Assembly (NCBI GenBank): GCA_003138485.1
Contig: PLGF01000147.1
Span: forward strand, 1 to 42,502
Reading direction: 5' to 3'
From: Verrucomicrobiales bacterium
Lineage (GTDB): Bacteria; Verrucomicrobiota; Verrucomicrobiia; Limisphaerales; Palsa-1400
Length of the DNA: 42,502 nt
Position 1 is the first letter of the stretch; every line of letters starts with the position of its first letter. Positions 8,765 to 20,759 of this stretch are shown here, in pieces. Both the position numbers and the translations under genes were made by a program. The notes below the pieces were generated by a model. The model did no database searches. It had not been told where the DNA came from and saw nothing but the letters and a program-made list of their open reading frames with translations.

Positions 8765-9832
8765 TCAGGCGACCGCGCCCGCCAGCCAAAGGATGACGGC
8801 GGTCAACACGATGTTGGCCAGGGCCAGCGGCAGCAGCCGCCGCCAGCCCAAGTCCATCAATTGATCGTAGCGGAACCGCGGCCACATCCAGCGCACCCAA
8901 ATAAACAGACCCACCAGCGCCGCCACCTTCCCCGCGAAAATGGCGATGTGAATCAACCCCAGGCCGATGGAGGCGGCTGGTTTGTCCAAACCCGCCAGCG
9001 GCAGCGTCCAGCCGCCCAGAAACAACGTCACCATCATGCCCGAAACCGCGATCATGTTGGCGTATTCCCCCATGAAGAAAAGCGCAAACTTCATCGAGCT
9101 GTACTCCGTGTTGTAGCCGGCCACCAACTCCTGCTCTGATTCGGGCAGGTCGAACGGCAGCCGGTTGGTCTCCGCGAACCCCGCGATCAGGAAAATCACG
9201 AACGACACCGGGGCATAGACGATCAGCCAGCCGTGCCCGGCCTGGAAGGAGATTACCCGGCCCAGGTTCAAGTCGCCCACGATCAGGAACACGGGAACGA
9301 CTGACATCCCCATCGCAATTTCGTAGGAGATCAGTTGCGCGCTGGAACGGATGCCGCCCAGAAAGGGGTATTTGGAGTTGGAAGCGTATCCGGCCAGCAC
9401 AATCCCGTACACCCCCAGCGACACAATGCCAAACGTGTAAAGGATGCCCACGTTGAGATCGGCTATCACCATTTTTACGTTGCCCAGTTGCGCGCCCAAC
9501 GGGATCTGCGAGCCGAAAGGAATCACCGCCAGGACAAGCAGCGACGGGATCATGGTGATCATCGGCGCCAGCCAAAAATAGGCTTTGCGGACGTGCGCCG
9601 GGGTGAAATCCTCCTTCAAAAACGACTTGACGCCATCGGCCACCGGTTGCAAGACGCCGAAGGGGCCGACTCGGTTTGGCCCGTGGCGGTCCTGGATGAA
9701 AGCGGAGATTTTGCGTTCGGCCAGCACCGCGTACGCCACCGCCGCCATGACCACCGAGAAAACCGCAACGATCTTGATGGCGCTGAGAACCACAAAGAGT
9801 TGGGTTGGAGACATATAAGCAAACAAGGTCAT
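8765..9832 (-). CDS. nuoH: NADH-quinone oxidoreductase subunit H
   Basis: A 355-residue membrane subunit that forms much of the quinone channel. Recognisable stretches: LAERKISAFIQDRHGPNRVG, GVLQPVADGVKSFLKEDFTP, RLPFDLPESEQELVAGYNTE and KFALFFMGEYANM, with the acidic loop that contacts the quinone site. The start used is the ATG at 9832. A second in-frame ATG at 9814 (MSPTQLFVV) is possible, since neither has a clear Shine-Dalgarno. The stop lies five bases before nuoI. Upstream, three bases separate it from the kinase-Nudix fusion gene, which replaces the usual direct nuoG-nuoH junction. Confidence 0.96.
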   Translation of the reverse strand: MTLFAYMSPTQLFVVLSAIKIVAVFSVVMAAVAYAVLAERKISAFIQDRHGPNRVGPFGVLQPVADGVKSFLKEDFTPAHVRKAYFWLAPMITMIPSLLVLAVIPFGSQIPLGAQLGNVKMVIADLNVGILYTFGIVSLGVYGIVLAGYASNSKYPFLGGIRSSAQLISYEIAMGMSVVPVFLIVGDLNLGRVISFQAGHGWLIVYAPVSFVIFLIAGFAETNRLPFDLPESEQELVAGYNTEYSSMKFALFFMGEYANMIAVSGMMVTLFLGGWTLPLAGLDKPAASIGLGLIHIAIFAGKVAALVGLFIWVRWMWPRFRYDQLMDLGWRRLLPLALANIVLTAVILWLAGAVA

Positions 9833-9835
9833 GGC

Positions 9836-11209
9836 TCAAAGCAATCGCAGGTCGGTTGGAACCGAACCGGCGGCAAGGATGTGTCTGACAATAAGTTCCG
9901 ACCACGGTTCCAGCTTATTTGGATCCTTGGCCATTATTTCAAGCAAGTCCTCAATTCTCACGAACTGGCCGCTGAGAGAAGTCCCTCGCCGCTCAAAAAA
10001 CTCTGTTCCGCTGAGAACTATATCGACATCATCGGTGGAGGCGTTCCATTGATACACCAAGGCCACATGTTTGGAGGTTGAGCCGCCTAAATCGCGGTAG
10101 ATTGCGCCAACCAGTTCCAAGGACTCGGAGTCCAGGCTTAAGCGTAATTCCTCATGAACTTCGCGCAACGCGCCTTGAATCAGGGAATTGCCATTGGTCG
10201 CGTCTTCTTTCCGAACATGCCCTCCCGCCCAAACCACCAGACGTTCGTGCAGCGGGTTGTCCGGTGATTTTTCCCGCCGTTTCATCAGGAGGACCCGGCC
10301 GTTGTTGGCCCGGACGATGACAATGGGAAGCGCCTGCAACTGATCTTTCAAATCCTCGGCTTGCTGCCGGGCAATGTAGGTTCCCCGTTTGACGAAATAG
10401 TCGGCGACATTCAAAGCGGCTTTGCCGGTGACACACTCGTTTCCGGAGAATAGCGCCATGAGATCACTCCGCGGGGCGCAGAGGATGTTCTCTTCCAATT
10501 GTTCGGAGATAATATCAAGCATAATTCCAGCAACTTTTTCCGCTGTGGCCGCGTGATGGCCGCGGAATTCCTTTTTTGATGTGTCCAAATGAAAAATCCT
10601 AAATTCTCGTTCCAACCGCCGGCATTCCGAGAGAATAGTCTCCCGGAACTTCTTAAGCCATGGTTCGTTCATGATTGATCCCTCGACTCCCTCAACGGGC
10701 AACGCCCCCTTCTCCCTCTCCATCGAATCTGTTGGGGAAGAAGTCATGACAACAACGCCAAATATCCGCTTCCGCCAGTCAGGCATCAACAGGAAACGCT
10801 CCACGACCTCCAACTCCCGCTTTTGGATTTTAGCCAAATGCTCCATCATCACCAGCCAGACTATCGCGTCGAAAAGTCCCCGATCCAATATCAGGATTTC
10901 CGGCGCGTCCGCGTCTGGTTCCATCCGGTGCTGGTGCTGGGTTTTCTCAAGGATTTTCGACAGGGTCGTGCATGCTGTCCAGATGTTAGAATTGGCGTGT
11001 TTTTTGTCCCGAATTGGGCAGACAGATGCGCGCTCAATCACCACCTCCACTTTGAAACCGCATCGCTTAAGAAACGTCTGCACTGTGGCGAGGGTGGATG
11101 TTTTTCCCGCCTTTGGGGACCCCGCGAATTCAATCACGACAGGCTTGCGGCCTCTCTTCTTGAATTCCTGGGCCAGCGACTCCGCGCGTTGTTGAAGGGG
11201 GGTCTTCAT
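9836..11209 (-). CDS. P-loop nucleotide-kinase-like / Nudix hydrolase fusion embedded in the nuo operon
   Basis: A 457-residue two-domain protein. Residues about 20-240 form a P-loop domain with Walker A GSPKAGKT (30-37), a DRG motif after a hydrophobic strand (ILILDRG, 105-111, as in deoxynucleoside and thymidylate kinases) and a later strand VVVMTSSP followed by an E/R-rich segment that may act as a lid. Residues about 293-440 form a Nudix-like domain: PIVIVRANNGRVLLMKRR, then a degenerate Nudix box with G330, a roughly five-residue insertion, and REVHEEL at 349-355. The glycine normally following EE is arginine. No signal peptide or membrane helix is seen, so it is cytoplasmic. Four bases separate it from nuoG and three from nuoH, so it is co-transcribed. 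Its base composition looks less GC-rich than its neighbours. Substrate unknown; a nucleotide or dinucleotide is the obvious guess. Confidence 0.85.
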   Translation of the reverse strand: MKTPLQQRAESLAQEFKKRGRKPVVIEFAGSPKAGKTSTLATVQTFLKRCGFKVEVVIERASVCPIRDKKHANSNIWTACTTLSKILEKTQHQHRMEPDADAPEILILDRGLFDAIVWLVMMEHLAKIQKRELEVVERFLLMPDWRKRIFGVVVMTSSPTDSMEREKGALPVEGVEGSIMNEPWLKKFRETILSECRRLEREFRIFHLDTSKKEFRGHHAATAEKVAGIMLDIISEQLEENILCAPRSDLMALFSGNECVTGKAALNVADYFVKRGTYIARQQAEDLKDQLQALPIVIVRANNGRVLLMKRREKSPDNPLHERLVVWAGGHVRKEDATNGNSLIQGALREVHEELRLSLDSESLELVGAIYRDLGGSTSKHVALVYQWNASTDDVDIVLSGTEFFERRGTSLSGQFVRIEDLLEIMAKDPNKLEPWSELIVRHILAAGSVPTDLRLL

Positions 11210-11213
11210 TTGG

Positions 11214-12938
11214 TTAGGTCCGCGCTGGCGCGCCCAAATCTCCCAGGCCGGCCCACGTCAGGCCGTTGAAGGCCGGCACGTCCGCGGCCATTTGGTTGAA
11301 GGCGCCTTCAATGCTCGAAACGTCCGGCAGGCCGGCCACCCCTTGGGCCAGTTCGTGCAGGAATTCCCATTCCGCGCGCGCGTTGCCTTTGGGCTGCACA
11401 CTTTGCATGAAGCGCTGCACCCGGCCTTTGACGTTGACGAAGCTGCCCCGCTTCTCGGCGTGGGCGCAACCGGGCAAAAGGTAGTGCGCCATTTCAGTGG
11501 TTTTGTTGGGCAGGATGTCGCTGACAATCAACATGTCCAGTTTCCCCAGCAAATTCTGTCCCAGGCCCACTTTGGTAACGTCCTCCCCGAAAACGATGAG
11601 CGTCTTGACAATCTCGTTGGCAATGTCCGAGGCGATGCGGGCGAGGTTGGAGCCGGGCCGTTCGGGGGCCAGGCCGATGAGCCGGGCGCCCGTGCTGTTG
11701 GGATTGCGGTCGGCGTTCAGGAGCAGGCGGTCGCCCTGGCCGGCGCGCGGAATAGTATCGGTGACCGCTTCGAGTTTGGCGGCCAGGCATTTGAGCAGGA
11801 AAAGCTCCTCGTTGGTCTGCCGGGCGGAGGCGATTATGGCTGCGGAACCCGGCCGGGTCTTGTTGAGAATCTCGATGATCTCGGCCAGGGCGCGCGACCA
11901 GGCCCCGGCTGGATCGAGGCGGCCGGTTTTTGAGCCTTCGACCTCTGTCAAGCGATCCTCGCGGTTGATCCACTTGTAATTGAGCCGCCCGTAGTCGCAC
12001 ATCCAGCAGGAGTTGACGGCGTCGTTCTCGCGCGGTTCGAAGCGGTACACCTTCTCCTCGCGGGAGCTGATGATGATGTTGCAGCCGGTGCCGCAACTGG
12101 CGCAGAGGCTCTTGCTTTCCTTCAGGAACCAGACGCGCATTTGAAATCGAAAATCCTTCGAGGTCAGCGCTCCCACCGGGCAAATATCGACCGTGTTCAG
12201 CGTGTAATTGTTGTCAAACGCTTTCCCAGGATAGCGCGTCAGCGCGCTGTGGCTGCCGCGATCGGCAAACCCCAGCGCGTCGTCTCCAGCGATGTCCCGC
12301 GAGAACCGGATGCAGCGGGAGCACAGGATGCAGCGCTCGTCGTCCAGCATGATCCGCGGTCCAAGGTCCACCTGCTTGGGCTTGTGCACTTTTTCCTCCG
12401 CAAAGCGGCTGGCCGACTGCCCGTGGTCCACCGAGTATTCCTGCAATTTGCATTCGCCCGCCTGGTCGCAGATCGGGCAATCCAGCGGATGATTGACGAG
12501 GAGGGATTCCAGCACCGCCTCCCGCATTTGTTTGGTCGCGGGCGAATTGGGGTAAATCTCCATGCCCGGCGATATGGGCGTGGCGCACGCGATGGCCCCG
12601 CGCGCAGTGGACGGTTCATAAGGCAAGACTGATTGGGAAATCTTAGGGGTGCCGTCCGGGTTGAGCACCGGCTTGCGGTCCGGCCCGATGACCGGCGTGC
12701 CGAACTCGACCAGGCACATCCGGCAATTGCCGGCGATGGGCAGCTTGGGATGATAGCAATAGTGCGGGACCTCGACCCCGGCCAGCGAGCAGGCTTGGAG
12801 CATCGTGGTCGGCTGCAACTTGCCCTGCCAATCCGGCATGGCCTTTGGCACTTCGATCTCGCGCCCATCGACCTTGATCTTCACCCTTTCCACCGGTGGC
12901 GGCGCTGGTTTTGATTCGGCTGTCTTCTCGTTCGGCAT
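11214..12938 (-). CDS. nuoG: NADH-quinone oxidoreductase subunit G, short form
   Basis: An iron-sulfur subunit of the complex I peripheral arm, 574 residues from the ATG chosen here. Cluster ligands seen: C61, C72, C75 and C118 for the [2Fe-2S] site; HPLDCPICDQAGEC for the His/Cys-ligated N5 cluster; CILCSRC...DICPVGAL for N4; and CASCGTGC followed by a fourth cysteine exactly 27 residues on (CX2CX3CX27C), the N7 motif. The molybdopterin-like C-terminal part is much reduced; the E. coli protein is about 900 residues. The frame is open to a TTG at 12983 inside nuoF, but the ATG at 12938 (MPNEKTAESK) is preferred because the extra 15 residues look like read-through and no Shine-Dalgarno precedes the TTG. 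It ends in TAA four bases before the kinase-Nudix gene. Confidence 0.94.
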   Translation of the reverse strand: MPNEKTAESKPAPPPVERVKIKVDGREIEVPKAMPDWQGKLQPTTMLQACSLAGVEVPHYCYHPKLPIAGNCRMCLVEFGTPVIGPDRKPVLNPDGTPKISQSVLPYEPSTARGAIACATPISPGMEIYPNSPATKQMREAVLESLLVNHPLDCPICDQAGECKLQEYSVDHGQSASRFAEEKVHKPKQVDLGPRIMLDDERCILCSRCIRFSRDIAGDDALGFADRGSHSALTRYPGKAFDNNYTLNTVDICPVGALTSKDFRFQMRVWFLKESKSLCASCGTGCNIIISSREEKVYRFEPRENDAVNSCWMCDYGRLNYKWINREDRLTEVEGSKTGRLDPAGAWSRALAEIIEILNKTRPGSAAIIASARQTNEELFLLKCLAAKLEAVTDTIPRAGQGDRLLLNADRNPNSTGARLIGLAPERPGSNLARIASDIANEIVKTLIVFGEDVTKVGLGQNLLGKLDMLIVSDILPNKTTEMAHYLLPGCAHAEKRGSFVNVKGRVQRFMQSVQPKGNARAEWEFLHELAQGVAGLPDVSSIEGAFNQMAADVPAFNGLTWAGLGDLGAPART

Positions 12939-12966
12939 ACTCACGAATGATGAAGGGCTGCGGTGC

Positions 12967-14388
12967 TCATGGGCTGGCGGCAACTTTCATTGCGTGGGCC
13001 GGTCCGCCGCCGGTGTTTTTCGCCTCGTCCGCCGCGCCGCGGGCTTCAAATTCGTCGCGGAATTTGCCGACAAAGCTTAGGACCGGCCAGGCGCAGGCTT
13101 CGCCAAAGGCGCAGATGGTGCGGCCCTGGATGTTTTGCGCGATATGAAGCAGGTAAGCGGCGTCCTGCTTGCGGCCGTGTCCGCTGGAGAACCGGCGCAG
13201 CGATTTGGCCAGCCAGAGCGAGCCTTCCCGGCAGGGCGTGCATTGCCCGCAGCTTTCATGGGCGTAGAATTCCGCGATGTTCGACAACGCCTCCACAATG
13301 TCGGTGGTGTCGTCCATGACGATAATCGCCCCCGAACCGGACATGCTGCCGGCTTGTTGGAGCGAATCGAAATCGTAGGGAATGTCCAGCATGTCAACCT
13401 CGGCCACCGCCATCTGGCCGTCCTCCCCTTTGCGCCGCATCTTGAACTTCTCGCCCGCTTTGAAGACTTTGGCCGATGAGCCGCCGGGGATGACCGCCTT
13501 GAGTGTCCGGCCCTCGCGCAGGCCGCCGCCAAAATGCGGGTCGAAGATCAATTCGCCCAACGTCGCCTTGCCCACCTCCACCTCGTAGCAGCCCGGTTTC
13601 CTGACATGGCCGCTGACGCTGACGATGCGGGTGCCGGTGTTGTTGGGGGCGCCCAATTTGGCGTACTGCGACCCGCCCATCTGAACGATATGTTTAACCG
13701 CGGCAAGAGTTTCGACGTTGTTGACAATGGTGGGGCACTGGTAAAGACCCAGGACAGCCGGGAAATAGGGCGGCTTGATGCGCGGGTAGGCGCGTTTGCC
13801 TTCCAGCGACTCGATCAGACCGGTCTCCTCCCCGCAGATATAAGCGCCGGCGCCGCGATGCAGGTGGATTTCCAGGTCGTAGCCGCTGCCCAGGATGTTC
13901 TTGCCCAAAAAGCCGCGCGCGCGCGCCTCGCCCAAAGCCTGACGCAGGAGGCGGGCGCCGCCGGTCATTTCGCCGCGGATATAAATGTAAGCCAGGTGAA
14001 CCTCATTGGCGTAGCAGGAGATGATCATGCCTTCCAGCAACTGATGCGGGTCCTTGTACAGAATCTGGCGGTCCTTGAACGTGCCCGGCTCGGATTCATC
14101 GGCGTTGCATATCAGGTAGATCGGCTTGCCGCTCCTGCGATCGACAAACGACCACTTCAGCCCGCAGGAGAAACCCGCCCCACCCCGTCCGCGCAGTCCC
14201 GAATTCTTCACTTCCTCCCGAAGCTGTTCCTGCGGAGAGATTCTCTTGCCGTCGGGGAGCTCCCTGGACGGCAGGGCGAGGGCCTTTTTGAGGGCCTCGT
14301 AGCCGCCGTGGCGCAGATAGCAGTCCAGGTCGGGCGTGTAACCCGGCTGGCCCATGTTCTTTAAAATGAGGCGATATTCTTCCGGCAT
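12967..14388 (-). CDS. nuoF: NADH-quinone oxidoreductase subunit F (NADH/FMN-binding)
   Basis: A 473-residue protein that oxidises NADH and holds FMN and the N3 [4Fe-4S] cluster. The glycine-rich NADH/FMN segment GLRGRGGAGFSCGLKWSF is followed by CNADESEPGTFKDRQI, AYICGEETGLIESLEGKR and the cluster motif ESCGQCTPCREG, with the fourth cysteine in GRTICAFGEACAWP. This is the complete family architecture. It is the first nuo gene of the cluster. nuoE, its usual upstream partner, is absent, and only 46 bases separate its ATG from the divergent tRNA gene. Its promoter must lie in or across the tRNA region. No Shine-Dalgarno is evident before the ATG. Confidence 0.97.
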   Translation of the reverse strand: MPEEYRLILKNMGQPGYTPDLDCYLRHGGYEALKKALALPSRELPDGKRISPQEQLREEVKNSGLRGRGGAGFSCGLKWSFVDRRSGKPIYLICNADESEPGTFKDRQILYKDPHQLLEGMIISCYANEVHLAYIYIRGEMTGGARLLRQALGEARARGFLGKNILGSGYDLEIHLHRGAGAYICGEETGLIESLEGKRAYPRIKPPYFPAVLGLYQCPTIVNNVETLAAVKHIVQMGGSQYAKLGAPNNTGTRIVSVSGHVRKPGCYEVEVGKATLGELIFDPHFGGGLREGRTLKAVIPGGSSAKVFKAGEKFKMRRKGEDGQMAVAEVDMLDIPYDFDSLQQAGSMSGSGAIIVMDDTTDIVEALSNIAEFYAHESCGQCTPCREGSLWLAKSLRRFSSGHGRKQDAAYLLHIAQNIQGRTICAFGEACAWPVLSFVGKFRDEFEARGAADEAKNTGGGPAHAMKVAASP

Positions 14389-14434: not shown

Positions 14435-14508
14435 TGCCCGATGGTGTAACGGTAGCACAACAGACTCTGGATCTGTTTGTCATGGTTCAAATCCATGTCG
14501 GGCAGCCA
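14435..14508 (+). tRNA. tRNA-Gln, anticodon CTG, CCA encoded
   Basis: A full cloverleaf can be folded by eye. The acceptor arms TGCCCGA (14435-14441) and TCGGGCA (14498-14504) pair over seven bases, followed by discriminator G and an encoded CCA (14506-14508). The anticodon stem ACAGA/TCTGT encloses the loop CTCTGGA, with anticodon CTG at 14467-14469. The T arm is CATGG-TTCAAAT-CCATG. The D arm GTG...CAC contains the GG pair. The U1-A72 end pair is the one typical of bacterial tRNA-Gln. Confidence 0.97.
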
Positions 14509-16554: not shown

Positions 16555-19461
16555 TCAGGGAGACGACAGCAGGATCACTCGATAAAACTGGTGCGACGCC
16601 CCGCCAAGAGGCACGGATGCGCTCACCAGGCCGCCGGAGCCGCTTACAGCAGCCACGTTCGTCCAGTTGGGTCTGCTCAAATCGCTTGCGGACTGGAGTC
16701 GATAGGTGAGGTTGGCGACCCCGCTCCAAGTCAACGTGATGTTGCTCTGCGTCATGCTGACCGACTGAAAAGCGGGCGCGGGAGCAGGCGCCACGCTGAC
16801 GTCATCCAACCCGAATCCCGCCCAATAATTGTAGAAATCAAATTCCAGCGTTGTCAGGGCGCGTGTGGCCGGAACGACGTATTGCAGGTTGGTCCAGCCG
16901 AAAGCGCCCAGGTTGGTTTGAGCGTAGAGCGTCGAGCCGTTCCAGGTCGCCGCGAAGTTGTTCGGGATTGTCACTCCGTTGGACGGGACGCTCGTCAACC
17001 AAAATGATACCAGGTATTTCTGACCGGGCGTCGTGGCAACAGCCTGGGAGAGGGAACCGTCCGCGGGCGCCTCCCCGAGGTACGCGCCATAAAGCCCCGA
17101 ATGCACGAACAGCGCGTCGGCTGCCCCGGTCAACTGATTCGTTCCCGCCACGTCCACGTCATCGGCGGCCAAAACAATATCAAGGTTGGTGTTGCCGACA
17201 AGGGTCCAGTCGGTGAAGTCGCCGCTTTCAAAGCCGCCGTTGCCCGCGTACAAATCAAATTGCCGGTTCTGGGCCGTGCCGTCGCCAAGATCGACTATCG
17301 ACACATTGGCGCTGTAGTTCCCGATCAAAAAGTTGCTGGCCGCCGAATTGAGACTGACCGTGACAGTCGATGCGGCGCCGCCGGGCTTCAGCGTGCCGGC
17401 GGTCGATGAAACGGTGAGCCAAAGCGAGGTGTTGACGACGCTCCACTTCAACGGGGCCGAGCCGATGTTGGTCAGAACGTAAGTTTGGGAAGCCACGGTA
17501 AAAGGCCCGCCGCCAGGTCCGCTGGAGGTAAAACCCAGGGGCGGCTTGATGACCAGGCTTTCCGAGGGCGGGGCCAAAAGCGCCTGCATCAGGTTCGCTC
17601 CGATCATCGTGCCCCACCCGCTGCAGAGGTCATAACCGACAGCCGACGTGTATTTGCCCGGGCTGCTGGCGCTGAAATTGTTTCCATTCGTAATGTCGTG
17701 AAAGCAGGAACTGTAGTTGGTGCTTTTTCCAATGGCGTATAGAACGGGATTGGCAAACCCGATCGGGGGCTGGCCATTGATGGCCGCCTGCTGGTTGACC
17801 AGCGCCATGAAACCCGCCCATAGCGGCGTGGACAGGCTTGTGCCCGATGTCGGGAGGTCAAACCCTTGGCCTAAGTACTGGCCAAATATGGAATCATTGC
17901 CCCACGTTACAATGATATTGTCAGCCACCAGGGCTACGTCCGGCAGGTTGCGCATCGTGGTGGAGCCTTGGTTGGCGGTCATGCTGATGCCCTGCTGCCA
18001 GGACGGGATCGCGTAAGCCAGGCTCACTCCGCCGCCGGTAGCCCCGTATGGAATCGGAATACCGTAAGTAGGATCGACCCCCGCGGGCGTCAGCCATACG
18101 ACTTCCGACTGCCATGAGCCATCCGCGTCGTTTGTCGTCAACGTCGTTCCGCCTACAACCGTCACATAGGGATCGTCCGCCGGTTCGTCTATCGCCCCGG
18201 GAAAAGCCCCGGAGTCGCCGGCGGCTTGAAAAAAGCTTTGGCCCTGCGCGGCATACTGCTGGAAAATCTGCACGGTCGAAGAGTTGATATCCATCTGGTA
18301 AGAGCAACTCAATTGCCGTGCCAGGTTGTCCGTGGCCATGCGATTGAGCACGTCGTTGATCTGCGCGGTCGTTGTCGCGTATTGGTAATAGTTTGTTTCC
18401 AGCGGCGCCTCATATACCGGCGTCGGGCCTTCATAAACCAACACCTTGCTCAACCCTGGCGCCATCGCGATCGCCATTTCGATGTCACCCGTGACCTCGT
18501 AGGCGTAGTTCGTGTACATGTCCGTGCCGTCAAATCCGTCAATCAAAATATTGGTCAGCATGAGATTGGTCGGCAAGACATTCAAGGCCGCTTCGCTTTC
18601 GTATTGGGCGATGTCGTCGGAATCGTAACCCGACAATTCAAAAAGCCCCACCGCCTGTCCACTGCCGTCCTGCGCAACGCCGGCGGCATAAGCCGTGCGA
18701 AAGTCATAGCCCATATAGGGACCGCCGACACCGCCCCCTCCACCGTTGCCTCCACCGGGTCCTCCACCCAACGGACGGACCTCGGGCTGGAACAGCGCGC
18801 CCGACCAGTGCATCTGCGGACGCGGCGTCACATAATTGTCCAGACCGCTGATCGCCAGCACCGGCGCATCCAGTTCCATCGACGGCTCAACATCCGGCGC
18901 GAAGAAAGTGCGCGCCTCAACCGGGTGTTGATAGACGCGCATCTTGATGTGAAATGCCTTCTCAATATCCGCGACCGATCCGCTGACATCGAGCAAAGTG
19001 CGGTTGGGATGGGTCGTCTTGACAACCAGCCCGTGCGACTGCGCGAAAGCAATCACCGCCTGATAGTCCTCCTGGCTGGGGCCAAAGGAGGAGGCGAACT
19101 GATCCGAGGTCAAATAGTGGCGAAAATTGGCGCTGGACGGCTCATAAAGCTCCTCAAGCAGGTTTGTGAGTTTCCCGCCGTTCCGCAACGGCAGGCCGAT
19201 TGCCAGGTCCAGGCGCCTGCCGCTCTCAAGCCGGCCAACGGACGTGAGCCGTTTGGTTATCGGCGGCACATGGCCTCTGAGAGCCTGTTGCGCCCCCTGG
19301 GCCGGCGGCGAGAACCCCAGCCAGCACGCCGCCACAAGTCCCGTTGCGGCGGTAAGGCCGCCTGGAAACGCGCCCCGCCCCGCCTTCCGCGCAACGCCGA
19401 GCGCAAAAGCCGCCAAGGGGGGGCAAAACCCGCCCAGTCGCGTAAAAAACATCTTTCGCAT
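16555..19461 (-). CDS. Secreted S53 (sedolisin/kumamolisin-type) serine-carboxyl peptidase with C-terminal sugar-binding-like and Verrucomicrobia-type domains
   Basis: A 968-residue secreted protease. The N-terminus has a basic, long signal segment (to about residue 55, ...FSPPAQGAQQ), then a prodomain (LYEPSSANFRHYLTSDQF...) and a Gly-rich linker (GGGPGGGNGGGGG), a plausible processing site. The catalytic domain starts near MGYDFRTAYAAG. S53 residues are visible: E322 and D326 in YEVTGDIE, and S542 in SGTSLSTPLWAGF, with GYDLCSGWGT near the calcium site. The C-terminal third has an Ig-like part, a jelly-roll-like part (GGFESGDFTDWTL...FDFYNYWAGFGLDDVSV) and a last domain with TYRLQSASDL...NWTNV...FYRV. 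The frame opens further upstream to 19716, but the ATG at 19461 begins the signal peptide and has GGAGGAG 13 bases ahead. Confidence 0.9.
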   Translation of the reverse strand: MRKMFFTRLGGFCPPLAAFALGVARKAGRGAFPGGLTAATGLVAACWLGFSPPAQGAQQALRGHVPPITKRLTSVGRLESGRRLDLAIGLPLRNGGKLTNLLEELYEPSSANFRHYLTSDQFASSFGPSQEDYQAVIAFAQSHGLVVKTTHPNRTLLDVSGSVADIEKAFHIKMRVYQHPVEARTFFAPDVEPSMELDAPVLAISGLDNYVTPRPQMHWSGALFQPEVRPLGGGPGGGNGGGGGVGGPYMGYDFRTAYAAGVAQDGSGQAVGLFELSGYDSDDIAQYESEAALNVLPTNLMLTNILIDGFDGTDMYTNYAYEVTGDIEMAIAMAPGLSKVLVYEGPTPVYEAPLETNYYQYATTTAQINDVLNRMATDNLARQLSCSYQMDINSSTVQIFQQYAAQGQSFFQAAGDSGAFPGAIDEPADDPYVTVVGGTTLTTNDADGSWQSEVVWLTPAGVDPTYGIPIPYGATGGGVSLAYAIPSWQQGISMTANQGSTTMRNLPDVALVADNIIVTWGNDSIFGQYLGQGFDLPTSGTSLSTPLWAGFMALVNQQAAINGQPPIGFANPVLYAIGKSTNYSSCFHDITNGNNFSASSPGKYTSAVGYDLCSGWGTMIGANLMQALLAPPSESLVIKPPLGFTSSGPGGGPFTVASQTYVLTNIGSAPLKWSVVNTSLWLTVSSTAGTLKPGGAASTVTVSLNSAASNFLIGNYSANVSIVDLGDGTAQNRQFDLYAGNGGFESGDFTDWTLVGNTNLDIVLAADDVDVAGTNQLTGAADALFVHSGLYGAYLGEAPADGSLSQAVATTPGQKYLVSFWLTSVPSNGVTIPNNFAATWNGSTLYAQTNLGAFGWTNLQYVVPATRALTTLEFDFYNYWAGFGLDDVSVAPAPAPAFQSVSMTQSNITLTWSGVANLTYRLQSASDLSRPNWTNVAAVSGSGGLVSASVPLGGASHQFYRVILLSSP

Positions 19462-19574
19462 ATTAGTAAACCAACTCCTCCGAAGCCAACATAGCAGACC
19501 CGCCCGCACAGGGCAAATTCTGACACCCCTTTTCTGAGTGACTTCGGCGGAAGAGGGGGTATAGTAGGATCGAT

Positions 19575-20759
19575 ATGTTGGGTCGAAGACTTTTGCGGTG
19601 GAGCCTGCTCCTGGCGGGCGCGCTGAACGGCGGCGGTGTCCTCGCCGGCGCGGGGGCGGAGAATGCCGCGACACCCATTCGCTTCGTAAGCGTCCAGGCA
19701 ACCGATCCGCTTGCAACGGAGCCAGGCGGCAATCCGGGGGCTTTCACCATCAGCCGCGCGGAGGGGACCAATTTGGACCTGACCTTTTCCTTCACGCTGG
19801 GCGGCACGGCGAGCAACGGCGTTGATTACGCGGCGGTCCCGACATCGGTGACGCTGGTTGCCGGGCAGGTTTCCACGAACATTGCCATCGCGCCGATCAG
19901 CCGGCCCCAGGCGACCGGTTACAAGACGGTGATCCTGACTCTGCCGCGCCACGCCCTGGCGAATCCGCCGGCTGTTCCTGAACTTATTGTGGGTTCCCTG
20001 GATCGGGCGGTGGTGTACATCGTCTATAATTACACGAATGCGCCGCCGCAAGCCACATGGGTCACTCCGACCAACGGCGCGTCTTTCCTGTCGCGGCCCA
20101 ATATCGAGCTGGCCGCGGAGGCCGGGGATTCCAACGGGTGGGTGACGGCGGTGGGGTTTTTCGCCAACGGCAAGCTTATTGGCACGACGACCAACGATGC
20201 GTTTGGAGCCGGCACGCCCCGGACGGTTGTGATGCGGGAGTCGCACGGGTCGATCATGCCGCTCCTGCCCGGAGGGCGCGAGCGCCGGTTTCAGTTTGTG
20301 TGGACCAATGTCCCGCCAGGAACTTACGCGCTCAACGCCGTGGCGGCGGACAATGCCGGACTGCAAACGACCTCCGCGTCGGCGAACATCGCCGTCACGA
20401 CGAACCTGCCGGAACCGCGGGTGCGGATCGTCAACCCGGCCAAAGGGGCCGATTTTCCGGCTATGGCGGCCATCAACATCTACGCGGCGGCTGGCGAGGC
20501 GGGGGGCGTGGTGGACGCGGTGGAATTCTTTGCCAACGGCGCCAGCCTGGGCGTGGCGACCAATTATCTGGCGGCGGAACCCAGCAGCCAGTTCCATCTG
20601 CGGCTGCAATGGTTGCCTTACCATTTCCGCTGGACCAACGCCCCCGAGGGCAGCAACGCGCTCACAGCGGTGGCCCTGGACAACAACGGAACTCTGGCCA
20701 CTTCGGCCCCGGTCACCGTCAACGTGACGACCAATCTGTACCATCATCGGCGCGATTGA
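19575..20759 (+). CDS. Secreted Calx-beta / Ig-like repeat protein
   Basis: A 394-residue exported protein of unknown function. The signal peptide is residues 1 to about 28 (RRLLRWSLLLAGALNGGGVLA). Residues about 30-125 resemble a Calx-beta domain (EPGGNPGAFTISR..., GGTASNGVDYAAVPTSVTLVAGQ). Two Ig-like units follow: PPQATWVTPTNGASFLSRPN...VGFFANGKLIGT...NVPPGTYALNAVAADN, and a repeat, PRVRIVNPAKGADFPAMAAI...VEFFANGASLGV...EGSNALTAVALDN. These are adhesion or scaffold modules often appended to enzymes, but no catalytic domain is present. AGGA lies five bases before the ATG. It is divergent from the S53 peptidase across 113 bases, so shared control is possible. The tail NLYHHRRD is short and carries no sorting signal. 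Confidence 0.85.
   Translation: MLGRRLLRWSLLLAGALNGGGVLAGAGAENAATPIRFVSVQATDPLATEPGGNPGAFTISRAEGTNLDLTFSFTLGGTASNGVDYAAVPTSVTLVAGQVSTNIAIAPISRPQATGYKTVILTLPRHALANPPAVPELIVGSLDRAVVYIVYNYTNAPPQATWVTPTNGASFLSRPNIELAAEAGDSNGWVTAVGFFANGKLIGTTTNDAFGAGTPRTVVMRESHGSIMPLLPGGRERRFQFVWTNVPPGTYALNAVAADNAGLQTTSASANIAVTTNLPEPRVRIVNPAKGADFPAMAAINIYAAAGEAGGVVDAVEFFANGASLGVATNYLAAEPSSQFHLRLQWLPYHFRWTNAPEGSNALTAVALDNNGTLATSAPVTVNVTTNLYHHRRD

Follow-up and report, generated by a model that had tools for sequence, protein, structure and literature searches.

A kinase-Nudix fusion gene of a rare family lies between nuoG and nuoH in three verrucomicrobial lineages

Results

We identified a gene encoding a P-loop kinase domain fused to a Nudix module, packed between the complex I genes nuoG and nuoH in a Verrucomicrobiales contig (PLGF01000147.1; the whole 42,502-nucleotide stretch analyzed is referred to as the window). 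Our preferred explanation, to which we assign a probability of about 0.5, is that the product is a two-domain nucleotide-handling enzyme of a rare family, whose gene was horizontally acquired and became parked at a well-expressed nuo junction. The protein is probably not a component of complex I itself.

An initial annotation of this DNA, given without strand, had placed a 457-residue reading frame four bases after nuoG and three before nuoH. Both the frame and its spacing were confirmed, and the gene could be assigned to the minus strand. The relevant features of the window are as follows.

14388-12967, minus strand: nuoF, upstream, on the same strand as the kinase-Nudix gene
11214-12983, minus strand: nuoG, ending 4 bp upstream of the kinase-Nudix gene
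9836-11209, minus strand: kinase-Nudix fusion gene (ATG at 11209, stop codon ending at 9836; 457 amino acids)
10511-11209, minus strand: N-terminal P-loop kinase domain, residues ~1-233 (AAA_28, Foldseek matches to TMPK/dNK structures, invariant alignment columns)
9836-10510, minus strand: C-terminal TM1382-type Nudix module, residues ~234-457 (3e57 profile, Foldseek, Pfam NUDIX); the complete module spans ~234-450, and the C-terminal half as mapped runs to 457
G329 to L355 of the protein: Nudix box, GGHVRKEDATNGNSLIQGALREVHEEL, with metal-ligand residues E350, E353 and E354
8765-9832, minus strand: nuoH, starting 3 bp downstream of the kinase-Nudix gene

Downstream of nuoH, the window continues with nuoI to nuoN in order. 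Given the 4-bp and 3-bp spacings, co-transcription and translational coupling of the kinase-Nudix gene with the nuo genes are likely. The arrangement is not an assembly artefact, because the same junction is present in three separate assemblies.

The proposed kinase/Nudix fusion was borne out by a Pfam search, an AlphaFold2 model and fold matches in the PDB. The model, based on a 20-member alignment, has a mean pLDDT of 81.9 and a pTM of 0.68, and Foldseek matched it to thymidylate/deoxynucleoside kinase (TMPK/dNK) structures with E values of ~1e-6, the half covered by each match being judged from match lengths and the nature of the match. These structures, which include A. aeolicus TMPK (2pbr), M. 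mycoides dAK (2jaq) and AbmG (8j5f), share with the kinase half a P-loop core and a Walker A motif, a glutamate and a DR motif in the expected order, at only 12-18% identity. Searches against the Pfam dNK, TMPK and AAA_28 families gave no match above the curated cut-off for the kinase half: AAA_28 matched residues 28-124 with an E value of 4.6e-5 (24.1 versus a cut-off of 27), and dNK matched a distant relative over most of the domain (1.9e-4; 21.7 versus 27).

The motifs of the kinase half comprise the Walker A sequence GSPKAGKT (residues 30-37), E59, DRG (109-111), R165 and GSIMN (177-181). Within the close family, the Walker A motif (GxPKAGKT), E59, D109-R110, D114, W118, R165 and GSIMN are invariant or nearly so; the catalytic-type residues are invariant across 20 members and most are retained in far members. 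We take E59 to occupy the position of the catalytic glutamate of dNK/TMPK enzymes, and on this assignment the N-terminal half combines a P-loop kinase fold with the Walker A, glutamate and DR motifs. It also carries conserved signatures of its own, ERASVCPIRDKKH..N.W and GSIMN. When the kinase domain was searched alone in the phylum sample, a single extra distant member was recovered, which is itself a fusion.

The Nudix half is matched by Pfam NUDIX at residues 296-425 (E 1.8e-7), with a score of 31.6 bits that exceeds the cut-off of 21.1. Sequence searches of the PDB gave a single convincing match, Tm1382 (3e57), with an E value of 8.8e-9 for the single sequence and 1.2e-16 for a 20-member profile, the latter over residues 234-385 and including the Tm1382 lead-in and long box. 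Foldseek comparison of the C-terminal half with Tm1382 gave an E value of 1.1e-9 and a TM-score of 0.80 on the target. Tm1382 resembles this half in its lead-in, its long Nudix box with an insert and its lack of the late glycine, but it stands alone without a kinase domain and shares ~24% identity with the window protein.

The canonical 23-residue spacing (Gx5Ex7REUxEExGU) was matched by none of the 22 members compared. In the window protein, Gx5E is followed by 13 residues rather than 7, with a similar insert in Tm1382. The REUxEE catalytic helix is invariant in all 22 members (REVHEEL in the window protein), E350, E353 and E354 being kept throughout, and the late glycine, which is absent from both the window protein and Tm1382, is present in far members (EELG). 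The insertion and the missing late glycine had therefore been recognized correctly, but their description as an altered box did not hold, since Tm1382 has the same form and REUxEE is invariant. The box has the normal form of the TM1382 type with the catalytic REVxEE kept, and it thus provides no argument for a binding-only role.

The NudC motif SQPWPF (SQPWPFPxS after the box) is absent from all 22 members, and the 30 residues that follow the box in the window protein contain no proline, whereas ADP-ribose pyrophosphatases have one ~15 residues on. An NAD-specific Nudix type was rejected on the absence of both motifs, and the sequence points to no particular substrate.

At the C-terminus (window 9836-9860, minus strand), many members have a short hydrophobic tail (PRLF, PRLL or DMPLF; QLDLF in locus L039). 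This low-confidence region resembles beta-clamp-binding pentapeptides, with a leading Q that is not conserved.

The kinase-Nudix family is rare and patchy and occurs in at least six phyla. Orthologues are 51-63% identical to the window protein along its full length. The class had full-length relatives in 3 of 384 genomes and the order in 5 of 250; a class sample of Vicinamibacteria yielded them in 7 of 193 genomes (two with the Nudix half only), and a Bacteroidota order contained one intact member in 247 genomes. Extending the Bacteroidota search with a mixed profile returned no further members. A pattern search of ~85,000 species, which misses divergent family members, recovered ~20 loci in Verrucomicrobiota, Planctomycetota, Acidobacteriota, Nitrospirota, Nitrospinota, Gammaproteobacteria and Bacteroidota. 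No full-length relatives were found in phage, plasmid and viral-contig collections. TM1382-like Nudix proteins that stand alone, with no kinase half, occur in Verrucomicrobiota and phages; they align to the Nudix half, and those in relatives share ~27-32% identity with it. Loci L023 and L024 represent one locus that appears in two bins, labelled Verrucomicrobia and Planctomycetota. Mislabelling or contamination probably affects one of these bins, and the order search assigns the locus to Verrucomicrobiota (G1586).

Nuo genes neighbour the kinase-Nudix gene only in the window and in genomes G004 and G414. Elsewhere, the gene is found inside a BREX operon, before ppk1 (G002/L029), beside CBASS, restriction-modification (RM) or Hma loci, or alone. 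These contexts raise the possibility that the protein belongs to anti-phage defence islands, as a component or as cargo, and would alter, deplete or signal via nucleotides on infection, the nuo copies being secondary landings. We rank this next after our preferred explanation, as a tentative alternative that falls clearly short of being likely. In its favour, the L023/L024 copy lies in a BREX-type operon, between pglX and a run of AbiEi_2, SLFN_AlbA_2/RecG-like, brxL and GajA-like ATPase genes; this BREX-like operon (L024:4149-13335) has an unusual arrangement. The copy in L021, at a contig end, adjoins a tRNA-Leu gene, an integrase and an HmaA helicase. Two Nitrospira copies (L026 and L028) share the same downstream genes and sit at the edge of a spot whose upstream side carries a type I RM system in one genome and, in the second, CBASS together with a type II MTase, while a relative from Alkaliflexus (~30% identity) lies between a type IIG RM system and Hachiman.

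In all four distant relatives, the gene immediately upstream of the kinase encodes a small membrane protein, which also fits a defence role. These genes are located as follows.

L039:5459-5926: upstream membrane-protein gene
L091:9478-9993: upstream membrane-protein gene
L139:3708-4280: upstream membrane-protein gene
L140:8765-9382: upstream membrane-protein gene

The membrane proteins of Alkaliflexus and G338 are homologous (155 and 171 aa; E ~1e-19), and those of G1029 and G644 (190 and 205 aa) look unrelated and occupy the same position. The G644 kinase is without the Nudix half, and the membrane-protein gene is still upstream. None of these proteins has a Pfam match. Beside the close-clade copies no such gene stood out, NuoH at the nuo sites excepted.

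Five loci in our survey lay near defence systems. Against a defence role, the other 13 neighbourhoods contained no convincing one. Arbitrary stretches of the same genomes, used as a control that was not resolved per locus, also gave defence-type matches (AbiEii, type II MTase and SspH), and the early, strong-looking defence counts were downgraded as a result. In Nitrospira, the gene occupies the conserved flank of the variable spot, and known defence models (PADLOC) gave no match, the best being DolB with an E value of 0.049.

We then consider the history of the nuoG-nuoH junction. The survey took in 54 nuoH loci, drawn from close relatives and the family of G414 (abutting was defined as an estimated gap of at most 150 bases). 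The insert was present in three loci (window, G004 and G414), 44 were abutting, two were gapped without the gene and five could not be judged. The expectation that the nuo operon is normally uninterrupted in this group was therefore sound, with 44 of 46 readable insert-free junctions abutting. The two gaps without the gene measure 309 and 218 bases (L047 and L058, in G013 and G022) and are possibly remnants or other small inserts. In the three occupied junctions, the gene is packed between nuoG and nuoH with gaps of at most ~22 bp.

It is quite unlikely, in our assessment, that a single old insertion in the ancestor of the order was inherited vertically and kept for an operon-shared function while most lineages lost the gene. 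The three nuo copies do group with the G015 (L021) copy in the gene tree, which is poorly resolved, and their 61-63% identity to the window copy resembles the divergence of several Nuo subunits. In the NuoH tree, however, the window, G004 and G414 are separate tips in three verrucomicrobial lineages, and parsimony gives three gains, compared with one gain and at least ~14 precise losses (15 side branches). The closest NuoH relatives also have insert-free junctions: the junction is intact in G002, sister to the window (96/97 support), whose own copy lies beside ppk1 and branches elsewhere in the gene tree, and G697 is the sister of G414 (100/95).

The distances also differ between the two trees. 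The window and G002 are separated by 1.71 in the kinase-Nudix gene and 0.48 in NuoH, and G004 and G414 by 0.69 and 1.14, respectively; as these distances disagree, the gene must have moved between lineages. Its composition is consistent with the later insertion that had been suggested from its lower GC content: the window gene has 53.3% GC (GC3 0.62) compared with 60-63% in the nuo genes (GC3 0.77-0.84), and all three nuo-located copies lie ~5-8 GC points below their host regions, the difference being 5-7 points for the two copies outside the window.

We also found no sign that the gene was transferred by homologous recombination across nuoG/nuoH. Sliding identity along these genes broadly tracks NuoH kinship up to the junction and revealed no recombination tract, within a sensitivity limited by divergence. 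Different insertion sites have no DNA in common beyond the reading frame, nor conserved ends of a mobile unit, and the G015 copy, near tRNA-Leu and the integrase, has no nuo remnant beside it.

The link to complex I or NAD(H) put forward in the initial annotation was not supported: a product expressed alongside NuoG and NuoH, whether a sensor or an enzyme (for NAD(H) repair, an NADH pyrophosphatase or a nicotinamide riboside kinase), would suit the exact placement in three separate NuoH lineages and the weak match to AAA_28, a NadR-kinase type family, but it is improbable given that nuo neighbours are lacking for most of the family, that G002 and G015 of the same order keep the gene elsewhere with nuoG-nuoH uninterrupted, that the best kinase folds are TMPK/dNK rather than NadR, and that the NudC and ADP-ribose-type signatures are missing as described above. 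Across the relatives, then, nuoG and nuoH are adjacent and the gene is scattered, as such a link would not predict, whereas nuo placement does recur in three lineages and both predicted folds are present.

Discussion

Under our preferred reading, a horizontally acquired nucleotide-handling enzyme would be translated along with the nuo operon in which it came to rest. With ATP as donor, the N-terminal half would phosphorylate a nucleoside- or nucleotide-like substrate through Walker A K36, E59 as base, D109-R110 and R165 in the lid. The C-terminal half would bind a divalent metal via E350, E353 and E354 and hydrolyse a nucleoside-diphosphate-X or NTP bond, presumably acting on the same pool as the kinase half or on a related one. 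The gene may have settled between nuoG and nuoH because the site is tightly packed and strongly transcribed and no gene was disrupted there. Counting against this reading, the same junction was used three times, which is more than random landing predicts; the sequence also names no substrate, and nuoG and nuoH show no recombination tract to account for the transfer. A further reading, which we consider improbable, casts the protein as a previously undescribed enzyme of conflict or stress that remodels the nucleotide pool. Its older form would work with a small membrane protein, and the gene would have been captured repeatedly at the nuoG-nuoH junction because synthesis alongside the membrane arm of complex I couples it to respiration.

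Nucleotide-enzyme fusions are known in NadR, which combines a kinase with an NMN adenylyltransferase, and in NadM-Nudix (PMC9503650). The window protein differs from both in joining a kinase straight to a Nudix module with no adenylyltransferase, and its kinase fold is of the TMPK/dNK type. Our literature searches on Tm1382, COG4112, kinase-Nudix fusions and nuo insertions found nothing relevant, including no paper on the substrate of Tm1382. The direct kinase-Nudix fusion is thus undescribed in the papers searched, and it has no whole-protein model in Pfam, NCBIfam or PADLOC. It represents a compact, assayable enzyme with two predicted activities. The repeated use of the very same junction, in a respiratory operon that is otherwise without interruption, provides a clean case of mobile single genes entering essential operons, and the membrane-protein pairing in distant relatives, together with the BREX-operon copy, makes a defence role testable.

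Several other features were observed around the nuo cluster. A tRNA-Gln gene (14435-14508, plus strand) adjoins nuoF, opposite the start of the nuoF-N cluster. No nuoA-E genes were seen directly upstream of nuoF in the window, and a nuoD-like gene occurs slightly upstream in L012 and L022. Another NuoH-like protein, with 45% identity, is encoded at G000:C88:11203-12198, so that the window genome probably has two complex I-type clusters, as do most relatives. Further along the window (16555-19716, minus strand), a large protein resembles secreted proteases of the sedolisin/kumamolisin type, as judged by eye from its translation.
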